The notes beneath the pieces were generated by a model. It had not been told where the DNA came from and ran no database searches. It was given only the letters and a program-made list of their open reading frames with translations. The position numbers were made by a program, and so were the translations under genes. Shown here in pieces: positions 12,872 to 20,449 of a stretch of DNA of 33,085 nt (position 1 is the first letter of the stretch; each line of letters starts with the position of its first letter). Source of the DNA: Pirellula sp. (GTDB lineage: Bacteria > Planctomycetota > Planctomycetia > Pirellulales > Pirellulaceae); contig JALOQW010000002.1 of the NCBI GenBank assembly GCA_025459275.1, forward strand, positions 1-33,085, read 5' to 3'.

Positions 12872-13918
12872 ATGAGCATTGCCGAACAAGCCCACGCCGA
12901 TCTCGAAAGACTCCAGCGGGCTCGCTCGCAGATTCAAACTCAGTTGTCGAAGATCATCGTCGGCCAGCAAGAGGTCATCGAGCAACTGCTGATCAGTATC
13001 TTCGCCCGAGGACACTGCCTGCTCGAAGGAGTGCCGGGCCTTGCCAAGACATTGATGATCAGCTCGCTGGCCAGAACCATGAATCTGTCCTTCAGCCGGA
13101 TCCAATTCACGCCGGACCTGATGCCTGCGGACATTACCGGGACGGAAATCATTGAAGAGAATCGATCGACGGGGGCTCGCGAACGGCGATTCATGGAAGG
13201 ACCTCTGTTTGCCAATGTAATCTTGGCAGACGAAATCAACCGCACTCCTCCCAAGACCCAAGCGGCATTGCTTGAGGCGATGCAAGAACGGCAAATCACG
13301 GTCGGTCGTGTCCGTCATACCTTGCAAGACCCATTCTTCGTGCTGGCTACACAAAACCCGATCGAACAGGAAGGAACGTATCCCCTTCCTGAAGCCCAAC
13401 AGGATCGATTCATGTTCAAAGTGTGGGTCTCTTACCCCACCTTCGACGATGAGTTCGAAGTCGCCCGCAGAACGACGGGCCGAGGGGGAGGTGACATTGA
13501 GCCAGTCTTGAGCGGTCCAGAGATTCTGTCGCTTCAAGACTTCATTCGCGGCGTCGAAGTCTCAGAGAATGTGATTCGGTATGCGTTAGCCATCGTCCGC
13601 CAAACACGAGTGGGCCAGGAAGGGATCCCCGAGTTTGCCCAAGAGCAACTGGCATGGGGGGCTGGTCCTCGTGCAGTCCAGTTCTTGATTCTCGGAGCCA
13701 AAGCCAAAGCCGCTCTATCCGGCCGCGCCCAAGTGGATACCAGCGATATTCAGTTCTGCGCCAAACCGGTCCTTCGACACCGGATCGTGGTCAACTTCGC
13801 TGCCGAAAGCGATGGGATCACGAGCGACCACGTCATCGATGAACTTATCAAGCAAACGCCAACGGCCCAGGATGAACTGCTGAGCGATGCCCGATTCAAA
13901 AAACTATTTGCATCCTGA
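12872..13918 (+). CDS. MoxR-family AAA+ ATPase
   Basis: [26 protein letters not shown] (Walker A), [29 protein letters not shown] (Walker B), [24 protein letters not shown]. Confidence 0.96.
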
Positions 13919-14789
13919 AGCCATTCGGCGCATCGCGTCGATGGAACTCCGAGCCCGAAACATTGTCGAGGGCTTCTTATCGGGCATGCACCGCAGTCCC
14001 TACTTCGGTCAATCGGTAGAGTTCGTCCAACACCGACAATACGTTCCTGGTGATGATCTTCGGCATATCGACTGGAAAGTCTGGGGACGGCAAGATCGCC
14101 TCTACATCAAGCAGTACGAAGAAGACACGAATCTTCGTTGCACTCTTCTGGTCGATGGCTCTGCCAGTATGAGTTACGGCCGTGGGCCACTGACCAAGTT
14201 TGATTATGCAGCCACCATCGCAGCTTGCATCGCTTACCTTTCGTTGCGACAACAAGACTCGGTCGGGCTCACCGTTTTCGATCAGCAAGTGCGGACCAAA
14301 TTGCCATGGCGATCGAGCCGAAATCATTTACAAGCCATCTTCAAGGCCCTCCAGCAAGCAACACCGGCCGATAAAACCGATCTGACCAAAGTCTTTCGAG
14401 AAATCAATGATACGTATCCCAAGCGGAGCCTCATGGTCATCGCTTCCGATTTTCTTGGAAGCGAAAAGGAATCGTTGCGCGGATTAGCTTCGCTCCGCAA
14501 AGCCGGCCATGACATTCTGGTTTTTCATATCCTGGATGACGATGAGCTCGATTTTCCGTTCAATGACCCGACCCGTTTCGAAGGGGTGGAAACGATCGAT
14601 CACTTAACATGCAATCCTCGCGCGCTCCGTGAAGGGTACCTGGAATCGTTGCAACGGTTTCTCGACCGTGTTCGACATGCCTGCGCAAGCTCCAAGATTG
14701 ATTACCAGTTGATTCGAACGAGCAAGCATGTGGACGCAGCATTAACCGCGTACTTGAGTGCTCGCATGGCTCACATGAGGAAACGATAG
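13887..14789 (+). CDS. DUF58 (VWA-like) protein
   Basis: [73 protein letters not shown]. Overlaps the moxR end by 32 bp. Confidence 0.95.
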
Positions 14790-14791
14790 CC

Positions 14792-17176
14792 ATGCAATTC
14801 GTATTCCAACCGTTGGCCTGGGGTTTCTTGCTGGTTCTCGTACCACTGCTGATCCATTTGATCAATTTGGTGCGGCACCGACGCACACCTTGGGCTGCGA
14901 TGGAATTCCTGCTCGAAAGCTATCGCAAGAATCGACGCTGGGTATGGCTCAAGCAAGCTCTCTTGATCGCTTCGCGTATGCTGGCGATGGCCTTGCTTGT
15001 CGCGATGCTCGCGCAATGGATCACCGGTTCTAAATGGCTGTCTGGTTTCGGGCGCACGACAACGCATCACTATGTCATTCTCGACGATTCAGCATCGATG
15101 GGAGACACGGCCAACGGCAAGTCGGCTTATCAAACCGCCCTCGGTTCCATCGCCGCGATTGCCAACGCAGCCAACCAAGGCTCGCAACAACATCTGCTGT
15201 CCATCTTTCGCGCGTCCCGTGGTGCGCTAGCAGCCAACCGTGTCGTCGAGTCCGCAGACGCTCCGACCGCTACTGAAGCCAACAGCACCAACGAAGTCCG
15301 CGCTGACGCCATTGCCGACCTGTTGGCAAGAACCATCCCGGCCGATGCGACTGGTCTCCTTTCAAAAATCAACAGTACGACTCCAACCCAGTTGGAATGC
15401 TCCTTCGATGAAACGTTGGCAGCCGTCGCCCCGCTCTTGCAGTCGGACCAGAGCGACCGCGCCATCGTTTACCTCATGAGCGATTTCCGAACTAAGGATT
15501 GGAACAACGCCACGATTCTCAAGCAGCGCTTGCAATCCCTTCGCCGCGATCCCGTCGAAATCCAATTGGTGGATTGCGTGGAAAACCGCCACGAGAATCT
15601 TACCCTGGCCGCCATCGAACCTCGTCAAGAAGTTTTGGCTGCAGGGGTACCTACCATGATCAACGTGACAGTCGTGAACCATGGTGCAGCTCCGGTTCGC
15701 AACGTCGCCGTCCGCGTGCAAGCCATCGACTACAGCCGGAAAGATGGCGAACCCAAACCTGCGGAATCTTACTCGGGAGTAGTGACCGAACTTCCACCAC
15801 TCCTACTGGATCGCATTGAGCCCGGGGAATCCGTCACACGCAACGTTCAAGTGGTCTTTCCCAAGAGCGGTTCGCACGTGATCACGGCCGAACTCCCTCC
15901 CGACGCGATATCCGCCGACAACACGGGCCGTTGCGTTCTGGATCTCGTGGACGGTGTCCGAGTATTGCTTGTCGACGGCGATCCTGGTGGCAAGCATTCC
16001 TTCTTTTTTGAATCCGCGCTCAACCCAGGTGGCAATGCGCGCACCGGACTCCTCATCGCTCGAGAAGGGCCTGAGTACTTGAGGGACACCGACGCGGAGG
16101 GCTTGGATCCCTACGCATGCATCGTCCTTCAATCGGTACCCAGTCTCGACCCTCGTGCCCTAGCAAATCTCCACCGATACGTTTCACGCGGCGGCGGTCT
16201 CGCAATCTGGTTCGGGGACAACTTGACTGCCAATGACTATTTGCGGAATTACGCAGCCTTGGCGAAACCGATATCAGGACTCGCGGATACCAGTCCGCTG
16301 ATACCGTTCGGGCTCATGGGGCCCGTGGACTTGCCGAAAGACCCGACGGACGGGACACCCGACATCATTGCAGACAATCATCCCATCTTTGCTCCGCTGC
16401 TCGGTCTGAGTTCATCACCGTTCCAATTCGTTCGTATCCAACGCTACGTCGAAATCGAACCCCGAGATACCAATGACAAACGATGGAAACCAGTGGCGAC
16501 ACTGCGAAACAAGAAACCGTTGATGGTCGATTACTCCTTGGGTGACGGACGTGTCTTGATTGCACTGACATCTCTGGACCGTCGATGGAGTAACTGGCCT
16601 CAGGATCCAACCTTCGTGGTAGCGGCGCTAAAGATGGTGGGCTACCTTTCTTCGTTCCGCACTACGGAGACGTCCAAGCTAGTCGGTAGTGGTTTGCGTT
16701 GGGATTTCTCGGCGCAAGAGATGTTGCCGGAAACGCAGCTGATCTGCCCAGCACCGACCGGTCGCAATATTCGACCAGCCCTTCAGATCAACGGCGAAAC
16801 CATCGGAGAGAACGGGTTGCGAGCCAACTTGGAGATTCGACCCGACAGTGACAGCGAAGACATCGTCCGTGCTCTGACGACCGCTGGTCTGTTTGAATGG
16901 TGGGGAACAGCCGTTCAAGGGGACTCCATTGTCAAGAACCTGGCTCGCAACACACCACCCGCCGAAGGAAATACCGAACGCATCACTGCGACGGATCTGA
17001 GCAACGCATTGAATGGAGTCAAGTACACGTATCGACCGGCGGGTTCCGTCGGCTCCAATCTCGCCTTGTCCGGTATGAGCAATCGGAATCTGATGCTGAT
17101 GGCCATACTGTTGTTGCTCCTCGTTGCCGAACAGTGGTTGGCATGGAGCGCTTCCTATCACTTGCCCAAACGATGA
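14792..17176 (+). CDS. BatA N-terminal domain / VWA / glutamine-amidotransferase-like membrane protein
   Basis: MQFVFQPLAWGFLLVLVPLLIHLINLVRHRRTPWAAMEFL (BatA N-term type), MIDAS LDDSASMGD, VRVLLVDGDPGGKHSFFFESAL (class-I GAT-like), C-terminal TM. Confidence 0.85.
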   Translation: MQFVFQPLAWGFLLVLVPLLIHLINLVRHRRTPWAAMEFLLESYRKNRRWVWLKQALLIASRMLAMALLVAMLAQWITGSKWLSGFGRTTTHHYVILDDSASMGDTANGKSAYQTALGSIAAIANAANQGSQQHLLSIFRASRGALAANRVVESADAPTATEANSTNEVRADAIADLLARTIPADATGLLSKINSTTPTQLECSFDETLAAVAPLLQSDQSDRAIVYLMSDFRTKDWNNATILKQRLQSLRRDPVEIQLVDCVENRHENLTLAAIEPRQEVLAAGVPTMINVTVVNHGAAPVRNVAVRVQAIDYSRKDGEPKPAESYSGVVTELPPLLLDRIEPGESVTRNVQVVFPKSGSHVITAELPPDAISADNTGRCVLDLVDGVRVLLVDGDPGGKHSFFFESALNPGGNARTGLLIAREGPEYLRDTDAEGLDPYACIVLQSVPSLDPRALANLHRYVSRGGGLAIWFGDNLTANDYLRNYAALAKPISGLADTSPLIPFGLMGPVDLPKDPTDGTPDIIADNHPIFAPLLGLSSSPFQFVRIQRYVEIEPRDTNDKRWKPVATLRNKKPLMVDYSLGDGRVLIALTSLDRRWSNWPQDPTFVVAALKMVGYLSSFRTTETSKLVGSGLRWDFSAQEMLPETQLICPAPTGRNIRPALQINGETIGENGLRANLEIRPDSDSEDIVRALTTAGLFEWWGTAVQGDSIVKNLARNTPPAEGNTERITATDLSNALNGVKYTYRPAGSVGSNLALSGMSNRNLMLMAILLLLLVAEQWLAWSASYHLPKR

Positions 17177-19995
17177 CGACCATGCAGGACACACGTGTCT
17201 TCTACCAGTTCATGCGTTTGGAGCAATTGGATCAATGGCATCATTGGTTCTTGCTCGCCTGCGTGATTCTGGCCATAGCCAGCTGGGTCGTCTACTGGTA
17301 TCGCAAGGACTGGCAAGAGTTGCCGCGAGTGATCGGCTATGCCTTGCTGATCCTACGGTTGACCGCGTTGATTGGCATCCTGATATTCTTTCTCGATCTG
17401 CAAAAACGGAGCGAACGACGCGATACGAGAGCCTCCAAGGTGGCTGTGTTGGTCGATACGTCACTGAGCATGACCATGCCCGTCGATGATGCGTCCTCTT
17501 CGTCCACGATCGGTACTTCAACCAGTCGCATCGCAGCGGTCCAAAGCGCATTGGGACAAACGAATCTCTTGTCGGAACTGCAGAATCGACACGATACGAC
17601 CATCTATCGCTTTGACCAGAGCTCCCGACCGAGCGCTGTTGCTACCTTCCTTAAGCCGATATCTCAGGGAAACGACACGGATCCAGAACGAGGAGTTAAT
17701 CAACTCTTGCAAATGTTGCGATGGACCGTTTGGATCGGCACCGGAATCTTGGCAACATCGCTCGTGCTACTTGTCGCCGCACTCTTGTTTCGCGCCTTGA
17801 GCCGAGCCGGCACAAATCAGCTAACCACTAGTCAACTGGCTTCGAATCCAACTGCCTGGGGTTACGTAGTTCTGTTTTCGGTCGTCGGTTCCCTGATTGG
17901 ATTTGTAGCCATCGCTACATCCGTCCTGCGAGCGGACAATATCCCGCTGAGCGCTCTGTGGTCAACGGATGATGTGATGCCGACTAAGCCAACCACGAAT
18001 TCCGAGGAAGGACCTTCTGCTCCCGTTCAAACGCCTGCAGAAGTCCCATGGGAAAATCTGCTCGCAGCCACAGGTACAGAATCACGAGTTGGCGATGCGA
18101 TCAATTCAATTTTGGATCAGGAACGAGGATCCCCCCTCGCCGGTATCGTCGTCTTTACCGACGGTCGCAACAACGCAGGTGTTGACCCGGTCAACAGTAT
18201 CGCAGAAGCGTCGATCCAAGGCATTCCCATCCATCCTGTCGGCCTAGGCACCGACAAGAATCCGATCAACGTGCGTTTGCTGGATGTGGAAGCCCCGAAA
18301 CGTGTCTTCCCTGGCGATCGCTTCCGTTTGACCGCACTCCTTCAAGCCTCGGGGATGCAAGGCACCCAAGTCCCCGTTCAGCTCCGGCGACGACCGGGGG
18401 GGCAGTCCAACGTCGGTCCGACGATCGAAGAGGAGCGGACCATTCATCTCGAAGGGGATGACGATATCACGAGTTTGGCATTCGAAGTGGAACCGCGCGA
18501 AATAGGTCCTTGGATCTATGAAGTCAAAGTGCTCGCCCCCACTCAAGACACCAATGCCGCTGACAATGCACTCGAGAGGGAAGTCCGCGTCGTTGAACCG
18601 AACGCAACGGTCCTCATCCTGGCGGGTGGTCCAACGCGCGAGTACCAGTTTGTTCGCAATCTGCTTTACCGAGACCCGACGGTTCAGTCCCACGTGTTTC
18701 TTCAATCCGGTGGTCCCGGAGTCTCCCAGGAAGCGAAAGAATTACTTACGGAGTTTCCGAAGACACGGGAGCAGATGGCTCAGTACGACGCCATCATCGC
18801 CTTTGATGCGGATTGGTTATCGCTGACCGATGAACAAATGGATGTACTGGAGCGATGGATCTCTGAGCAATCGGGCGGACTCGTCTTGATTGCAGGACCA
18901 GTCGCGACTCCAAAATGGGCAGGCGGTACCGGAAACGGCAATCGAAAGGCAGAGATACTTCGCGGTCTATCACCTGTGGTTATGAACAGCCGTGGTGCCA
19001 GGCTCGTATCGATTGGCCGATTCGAGTCAGAAACAGCCTGGCCACTCACCTTTGCCCCGGACGCATGGTCGAGTGAATTCATCCAAGTCGGAAAGGATCT
19101 CGAAGAGAGCCAACGGGCCTGGCAACAGTTCCGCGGAGTCTACAGCTTCTTTGCATGTTACGAACCCAAGCCTGCTGCTACCGTCATCGCCAGCTTTTCT
19201 GATCCCACTACCATCGTGAACGGGACCGCACCGATCTATTTGGCGACCCAATTCTATGGTTCAGGTCGAGTGGCTTTCCAAGGAGGAGGCGAATTCTGGC
19301 GCCTGCGAGAAGTTGGCGAAGGTTACTTCGATACCTATTACACCAAACTCATTCGCTGGGCCGGTCAAGGAAGACTGTTGCGAGACTCCGATCGCGGCAT
19401 GTTGCTCGTCGACAAGGAGCAAGCAGTTGTCGGAGATACCGTGGTGGTGCGTGCCGTCCTTCGCGATGCGCAGTTTCAGCCGATGGTTCAACCCGAAGCT
19501 GTCGCCAAATTGGTCGAACCGGGTGGCCGATCCAGCCAGTTACGACTGCGCCCCATTCCCGACCCAAGCCAAGCCGGAGTCTATGTCGGTCAATACATCA
19601 CCAAGAAAACAGGCACGTACGAAGTGCAATTAGCCATCGGTACGCTCGCAGACCAAACCATTTTGTCGGAGCAAACCATCGTGCGCGTGCCAGCCTTGGA
19701 GATCCAAAGACCTCAGCGCAACGATGTCCTCCTCAATGAACTCGCCCTTCGAACCGGAGGGCGATACTGGATTGGACTCGATTCTCTTCATGGAGGCAGC
19801 CCATCCGAATCCGCGACGGGCACGCCCGCTGCATCGGGACTATCTGCCGCAATCGAACCGCGAGATCAAACCAATTACGTTCCCGGCGCGCTGGACATCG
19901 AATTCCAGCAGCGACTCATGACCTTGTTAATGGCCTTGATCGCGGGTGCATTGAGCCTGGAATGGCTCGCGCGACGTCTGAGCCGTCTCGCATAG
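17173..19995 (+). CDS. VWA / glutamine-amidotransferase-like membrane protein with internal TM insertion
   Basis: ATGA overlap with the previous gene. N-terminal TMs; VLVDTSLSM MIDAS; two further TMs; VVFTDGRNNAG; VLILAGGPTREYQFVRNLL (GAT-like); C-terminal TM. Listed start at 16897 is an over-extension. Confidence 0.85.
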   Translation: MTTMQDTRVFYQFMRLEQLDQWHHWFLLACVILAIASWVVYWYRKDWQELPRVIGYALLILRLTALIGILIFFLDLQKRSERRDTRASKVAVLVDTSLSMTMPVDDASSSSTIGTSTSRIAAVQSALGQTNLLSELQNRHDTTIYRFDQSSRPSAVATFLKPISQGNDTDPERGVNQLLQMLRWTVWIGTGILATSLVLLVAALLFRALSRAGTNQLTTSQLASNPTAWGYVVLFSVVGSLIGFVAIATSVLRADNIPLSALWSTDDVMPTKPTTNSEEGPSAPVQTPAEVPWENLLAATGTESRVGDAINSILDQERGSPLAGIVVFTDGRNNAGVDPVNSIAEASIQGIPIHPVGLGTDKNPINVRLLDVEAPKRVFPGDRFRLTALLQASGMQGTQVPVQLRRRPGGQSNVGPTIEEERTIHLEGDDDITSLAFEVEPREIGPWIYEVKVLAPTQDTNAADNALEREVRVVEPNATVLILAGGPTREYQFVRNLLYRDPTVQSHVFLQSGGPGVSQEAKELLTEFPKTREQMAQYDAIIAFDADWLSLTDEQMDVLERWISEQSGGLVLIAGPVATPKWAGGTGNGNRKAEILRGLSPVVMNSRGARLVSIGRFESETAWPLTFAPDAWSSEFIQVGKDLEESQRAWQQFRGVYSFFACYEPKPAATVIASFSDPTTIVNGTAPIYLATQFYGSGRVAFQGGGEFWRLREVGEGYFDTYYTKLIRWAGQGRLLRDSDRGMLLVDKEQAVVGDTVVVRAVLRDAQFQPMVQPEAVAKLVEPGGRSSQLRLRPIPDPSQAGVYVGQYITKKTGTYEVQLAIGTLADQTILSEQTIVRVPALEIQRPQRNDVLLNELALRTGGRYWIGLDSLHGGSPSESATGTPAASGLSAAIEPRDQTNYVPGALDIEFQQRLMTLLMALIAGALSLEWLARRLSRLA

Positions 19996-20005
19996 GGGCA
20001 ACACC

Positions 20006-20095
20006 GTTCAACGAACCAACGTCATGCAGTGGATCTTGTTAAAGATCCTGGATCACGGGGAAGTTTAACAACTTCCACTACCTTCGTTGAAGGTA
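20006..20095 (+). promoter_or_regulatory. Multi-hairpin intergenic element
   Basis: GGATCTT-GTTA-AAGATCC (20031-20048), GGAAGTT-TAAC-AACTTCC (20059-20076), TACCTTC-GTT-GAAGGTA (20079-20095), preceded by GTTC-AAC-GAAC (20006-20016). Confidence 0.7.
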
Positions 20096-20143
20096 TCGCG
20101 ATCAAGAGATACTCGTGGACAGTAACTGCCAACGGAACGCATT

Positions 20144-20449
20144 ATGAAACGCTACGCTGTCATCGACCACTCGATCGGTTTGACGCAAGGACTGTACGAC
20201 GAACTGAGTGAAGCGATCGCTTGCGCAGTACGATTGCAGGATGCAGGTAAACAAGTTGGGGTCCACGACACGCAGGGATCCGCAGCTCTTGCTGCAGGCG
20301 TTTTCGACGTCAAGGATGCGGAATACTTCCTTGGACGGCCGATCTGTAGTGCGACCATGAATCATCCCATGCTGATCGCAGATATCCTTGCCAAGGCCGA
20401 GGAAACCAAACCGGAAAAAACGAAGTATCATTGGGACATTGATTCTTGA
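20144..20449 (+). CDS. Small hypothetical protein, 101 aa
   Basis: MKRYAVIDHSIGLTQGLYDELSEAIACAVRLQDAGKQVGVHDTQ...YHWDIDS; alpha/beta-like composition, no family recognised. Confidence 0.7.
   Translation: MKRYAVIDHSIGLTQGLYDELSEAIACAVRLQDAGKQVGVHDTQGSAALAAGVFDVKDAEYFLGRPICSATMNHPMLIADILAKAEETKPEKTKYHWDIDS

Follow-up and report, generated by a model that had tools for sequence, protein, structure and literature searches.

REPs stabilize mRNA in E. coli and are usually explained either as sequences moved by RAYTs or as structures kept by the host. The BOX elements of Streptococcus pneumoniae are modular, boxA-boxB(n)-boxC, and their middle unit varies in number. REPINs are REP doublets mobilized by RAYTs (Bertels and Rainey 2011, PMC3116915). 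The GTAG-15 REP dimers of Anabaena variabilis are, according to the excerpts of the report used here, regularly embedded in a long palindrome that is conserved and lies outside the REP, and the same excerpts report REPs in downstream position (Di Nocera et al. 2013, PMC3733652).

Here, we describe an intergenic locus of a Pirellula species. Within the window, the whole stretch of 33,085 nucleotides that was analysed, positions 19999-20098 are identified by sequence comparison as a decayed copy of a dispersed mobile element of ~101 bp. As far as the excerpts of PMC3733652 show, its nearest published precedent is the GTAG-15 dimer of A. variabilis, which likewise lies inside a long palindrome, conserved and distinct from the REP itself. 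Those excerpts mention no target duplications for GTAG-15, whereas the shell of the Pirellula element is flanked by 10-bp duplications at TTAA-type sites; and whereas palindromes without REPs were, by the same excerpts, not found, the planctomycete shell contains different REP pairs in different genomes. Relative to GTAG-15 as described there, the element thus adds a target duplication, a cargo exchangeable across genera and, in its own genome, a near-exclusive association of REP and shell. Like REPINs (PMC3116915), it comprises two inverted GTAG/GTGG-tagged REPs with a short spacer, occurs mostly as doublets and can form one long hairpin. It differs from REPINs in possessing an outer terminal inverted repeat (TIR) and a target duplication, in that no cognate RAYT was found, and in that the mobile unit extends outward beyond the 5' tag. 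With MITEAba12 (PMC6382973), NEMIS, RUP and ERIC it shares a length of ~100 bp, the lack of coding sequence, TIRs, a fixed-length target duplication and an intergenic location. It is set apart from these bacterial MITEs by a 10-bp duplication at a palindromic, TTAA-centred target and by an interior that consists of an exchangeable REP pair with tandem expansions. The modularity and the variable number of a middle unit recall BOX, to which the sequence is unrelated; the ends of the Pirellula element are true TIRs and its repeated unit is a GTAG-tagged REP.

Anatomy and folding of the window copy

The features of the locus are as follows.

16897-19995, + strand: VWA-domain gene, an open frame of 1032 aa when counted from the earliest possible start, with its stop in the target duplication
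19989-19998, + strand: left target copy CGCATAGGGG, a degenerate CGnTTAAnCG target, assigned from the sequence and from the duplication and target consensus of the family
19993-19995, + strand: VWA stop codon TAG, inside the left target copy and exactly 3 bp before the TIR
19999-20015, + strand: left TIR CAACACCGTTCAACGAA, one mismatch to CAATACCGTTCAACGAA; holds the weak fourth hairpin
20026-20048, + strand: REP-like unit 1 GCAGTGGATCTTGTTAAAGATCC, GTAG tag mutated to GCAG; contains hairpin 1 (20031-20048)
20059-20081, - strand: REP-like unit 2, inverted, reverse complement GTAGTGGAAGTTGTTAAACTTCC, GTAG tag intact; contains hairpin 2 (20059-20076)
20079-20095, + strand: hairpin 3, the junction of REP unit 2 and the right TIR, as judged by comparison with family members
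20083-20098, - strand: right TIR TTCGTTGAAGGTATCG (consensus TTCGTTGAACGGTATTG), with a 1-bp deletion
20099-20108, + strand: right target copy CGATCAAGAG, decayed, 5/10 identical to the left copy
20144-20449, + strand: downstream 101-aa ORF, no Pfam match

The VWA gene ends an ordered series of ORFs (12872-19995), which we take to resemble a MoxR AAA ATPase - DUF58 - VWA membrane protein cluster. An earlier, sequence-only reading had noted a hairpin cluster at 20006-20095 in the 148-bp gap between the VWA gene and the 101-aa ORF (19996-20143), and its description is accurate in most respects. The hairpins GGATCTT(GTTA)AAGATCC (20031-20048), GGAAGTT(TAAC)AACTTCC (20059-20076) and TACCTTC(GTT)GAAGGTA (20079-20095) are present, as is the weaker GTTC(AAC)GAAC (20006-20016); TTGTTAAA (20036-20043) and TTTAACAA (20064-20071) are reverse complements of each other, and TTCAACGAA and TTCGTTGAA are complementary as it had claimed. 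A search for terminator-like sites with a T tract gave none, in agreement with its view that the cluster is not a simple terminator. The extent of the structure has to be redrawn, its boundaries lying at 19999-20098 plus the flanking duplications, and hairpin 3, described as perfect, is so only in the window copy because a C has been deleted from the right TIR. The kissing-loop design suggested by the loops dissolves into a by-product of the whole-element palindrome: the loops GTTA/TAAC in the window and GCCA/TGGC in the consensus are complementary because the two REP units are inverted copies. Its suggestion of a protein-binding array finds no support, the element being a dispersed repeat.

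Both of the alternative structures that had been proposed, local hairpins and one long stem, were computed. Folded as RNA, the 100-nt window element reaches -34.5 kcal/mol (z = -4.1; 0 of 200 dinucleotide shuffles were as stable). The long stem is favored in the consensus (-52.5 kcal/mol versus -21.2 for local hairpins) and, by a smaller preference, in the window copy (-34.5 versus -28.7), which is among the more diverged members of the family. An Rfam search of the element returned no match.

The dispersed family and its target sites

The Pirellula assembly comprises 4.6 Mb in 544 contigs and is fragmented and ~80% complete. The earlier reading had proposed a blastn check for dispersal, and a search of this type with a 141-bp query was positive, yielding at least 45 matches in the genome. 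The 17-bp terminal repeat CAATACCGTTCAACGAA has 129 matches with up to two mismatches, compared to 1 for a reversed-pattern control, and the inner 23-bp unit GTAGTGGAnnTTGCCAAAnnTCC has 201, compared to 0. Among the matches listed for each pattern there are at least 97 clusters, and the genome probably holds about a hundred copies. The TIRs are paired at fixed spacing, and the standard form of 101 bp consists of a TIR, 10 bp, a REP unit R(TC), 10 bp, an inverted R(AG) and a second TIR. In general, a 10-bp target duplication is followed by a TIR, one to five tandem REP-like units, an inverted REP unit, the other TIR and the second duplication; the R-type unit has the pattern GTAGTGGAnnTT...AAnnTCC. 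Elements are small, numerous and devoid of coding capacity, extending from the 101-bp core up to 235 bp in tandem variants with 2-5 R(TC) units at 30-40-bp steps (L031, L045, L058, L075). In these and similar loci amplification is confined to R(TC), and the R(AG) beside the right TIR stays single. A sister family of 133 bp (L051, L053, L057, L059, L061-L063, L070, L074, L080) has the same TIR and another interior, a GTGG-tagged REP pair, GTGGCGTAGGCATCCTGCCTGC / GTGGGATAGGCTTCTAGCCTGTC.

Among the matches listed, 71 of 80 clusters hold a head-to-head REP pair, and of the 69 clusters in which a REP unit is perfect, 67 carry the TIR as well, by a loose criterion of up to four mismatches. REPs in this genome therefore seem to have spread almost only inside the shell. 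In a loosely matched set of 228 REP units, the GTAG tag is present in 155, with the hairpin following, and both free stem pairs are complementary in 174 (shuffled mean 80, maximum 98). Relatives show the same co-variation: 55 of 72 units pair at both positions (shuffled mean 36, maximum 44), with the stem versions TC/GA, AG/CT, CC/GG and GG/CC. This co-variation characterizes the dispersed family and not the VWA locus.

Direct duplication of the target is evident from the sequences of three genomes. For the 52 Pirellula elements with both ends among the matches listed, the left and right flanking 10-mers have a mean identity of 0.71, compared to 0.20-0.37 at offsets that leave them out of register, and in several copies they are identical at 10/10 positions. 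In SYJV01, a related metagenome-assembled genome, flanks match at 8.75/10 on average, compared to 5.2 when the pairs are shuffled, and the consensus of the targets is palindromic, CG-TTTAAA-CG; in G032, a complete genome, the flanks of most copies match at 9-10/10. The duplication of the window copy itself has decayed to 5/10. Fixed-length target duplications indicate a DDE-type transposase. To our knowledge, Y1 (RAYT; IS200/IS605 mechanism) transposition makes no such 10-bp duplication, and a fixed 10-bp duplication therefore excludes Y1 transposition of the whole unit.

Copies are found beside unrelated genes and preferentially at gene 3' ends; among the matches listed, 31 lie between convergent, 31 between co-directional and 9 between divergent genes. 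In this same set, 20 element ends follow the stop codon of an ORF (100 aa or longer) at a distance of exactly 3 bp, compared to 0-4 ends at each other offset, and 19 of 82 insertions occupy such sites compared to 27 of 424 intergenic TYAR sites (p = 1.6e-5). The insertion at the VWA stop codon, read directly from the window, is of this kind. No enrichment was detected in SYJV01 (6 of ~75 elements versus 61 of 929 sites). We therefore rejected a stop-codon preference, strong as it is in the Pirellula genome, as a general property of the element.

Shell, cargo and the search for a transposase

Shell and REP cargo are separable across genomes. REP units without this TIR are present in congeners and in other genera, often as tandem arrays or head-to-head pairs. 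Conversely, at least four other genomes of the Planctomycetota, and the 133-bp sister family, have different REP pairs within this shell, the same TIR and TTAA target enclosing GTAGTGGACGAGGTTACGAGTCC in G032, GTGGGATAAGCTTCCAGCTTGTC in SYJV01, GTAGCCGCGTCTCTCCGAGACGCG in SJ293 and GTGGCATGAGCCTCTGGC in an uncultured Pirellulaceae metagenome-assembled genome (L270). The cargo of these other shells consists of GTAG- or GTGG-tagged pairs; a 285-bp version in Aquisphaera insulae differs in its interior, which shows no clear tagged pair. The shell is rare, and among 346 sampled genomes of the phylum many copies were found only in the Pirellula genome. REP pairs of the GTAGTGGA type also lie within a different shell (G035, L105 and L118; G002, L104), whose ends in G035 resemble CTAGTGCTTTGTCA...TGACAAAGCACTAG; REP pairs in inverted-repeat shells therefore recur with another TIR.

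An autonomous element with these TIRs was found neither in the fragmented, ~80% complete Pirellula genome (G000) nor in the complete genome G032, although a parent need not co-reside with every MITE, nor, at up to one mismatch, among the 346 genomes of the phylum. No autonomous partner emerged from shorter TIR patterns in G032 or from TIR pairs at a spacing of 0.5-4.5 kb with a long ORF, and no link to these TIRs was found for the two DDE_Tnp_1 genes of the Pirellula genome. TIR-bracketed units of ~1.7 kb in G032, considered as candidates, proved to be shells interrupted by a Tn5/IS50-like insertion sequence. This insertion sequence is 1543 bp long, encodes a 474-aa transposase (PF14706 + PF02281), has the ends CTGyTGATTACCCACAAGT and is present, by protein match, in 17 near-identical copies (L181-L186, L201-L230). 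Every copy examined sits in a REP hairpin, inside or outside the MITE shell, with an 11-bp duplication that reads GAGGTyACGAG or differs slightly from it. Targeting of REPs has precedent in the IS4 family, as in ISRm22 (PMC1525189), and the G032 element is a planctomycete case.

The Pirellula genome contains four Y1 genes. No convincing R-type REP unit was present in the flanks read at these 4 loci or at ~48 Y1 loci of relatives, and a RAYT association of the R-type REP thus finds no support at these flanks. Because no Y1 gene was found beside an R-type REP, we use the term REP-like and do not file the element as a REPIN. In the congener G009, a region with a Y1 (RAYT-like) gene (L173; G009:C86:5500-10000) contains 15 copies of another REP type, GTACGACGGACTTCTAGTCCGTC, many in head-to-head pairs, and is likely a RAYT-REP unit with a GTAC tag.

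Competing explanations and implications

We regard the window element, with a probability of roughly 0.87, as a non-autonomous, TIR-bounded MITE that carries a head-to-head, REPIN-like REP pair as cargo and would depend on a transposase supplied in trans. That it is instead an ordinary REPIN, a REP pair moved by a RAYT (Y1) transposase with the outer repeat merely a conserved flank, is improbable. The GTAG tag, the covarying hairpin, the head-to-head pairing, the TIR-less REP units of congeners, the Y1 gene among REPs of another type in G009 and the four Y1 genes of the Pirellula genome speak for it. It is contradicted by the confinement of nearly all perfect REP units to the TIR shell, by 10-bp duplications that differ from the generally known outcome of Y1 transposition, by the lack of a convincing R-type unit in the Y1 flanks read and by the unrelated REP types that the same shell carries in other genomes. 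More improbable still is a regulatory RNA specific to this locus, a leader or attenuator for the 101-aa ORF, to which the stable fold and the position between two co-directional genes would be suited; a regulatory RNA leader had been considered in the sequence-only reading. The element is dispersed beside unrelated genes and matches no Rfam family. VWA orthologues were present in all 45 genomes searched, and comparison of the orthologous sites shows neither the element nor the 101-aa neighbor at any of the 22 orthologue ends examined in congeners; a conserved leader is therefore rejected. Chance palindromes, the null case of that reading, are negligible as an explanation, given the inner-unit and TIR matches against their controls.

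A further possibility, unlikely but compatible with a MITE origin, is exaptation as a 3' structure, the palindrome now protecting or trimming the VWA transcript or blocking read-through. The insertion at the VWA stop codon and the bias of copies toward gene 3' ends fit this proposal, as do the mRNA-stabilizing function and downstream position of REPs. There is, however, no T tract, the window copy is among the more diverged, and the 3' preference would also arise from purifying selection alone. A role of the window element in mRNA stability or processing, acquired later, is possible.

Returning to the MITE interpretation, a DDE transposase with matching ends would act in trans, inserting the shell by cut-and-paste or copy-and-paste at sites centred on TTAA. 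At the window locus, the element has landed in the VWA stop codon and has decayed. REP hairpins would then sit just 3' of genes and may act as mRNA 3' structures, and their dispersal would be independent of any such role. A broader proposal, which we advance tentatively and at somewhat less than even odds, is that in the Planctomycetota REP pairs of the host are captured repeatedly by one conserved TIR shell (CAATACCGTTCAACGAA, with its 10-bp duplication centred on TTAA) and spread with it by a DDE transposase. If this is true, REP families would be dispersed by cut-and-paste machinery instead of RAYTs, and cargo would be exchanged between shells.

These observations resolve a puzzling cluster of hairpins into a repeat family that can be annotated and numbers about a hundred copies in the genome, where the same REP units appear to travel almost exclusively in a target-duplicating transposon shell. 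If the transposase of the shell were found, it would become testable whether DDE transposition spreads REP families, and why GTAG/GTGG hairpin pairs recurrently end up in such shells.
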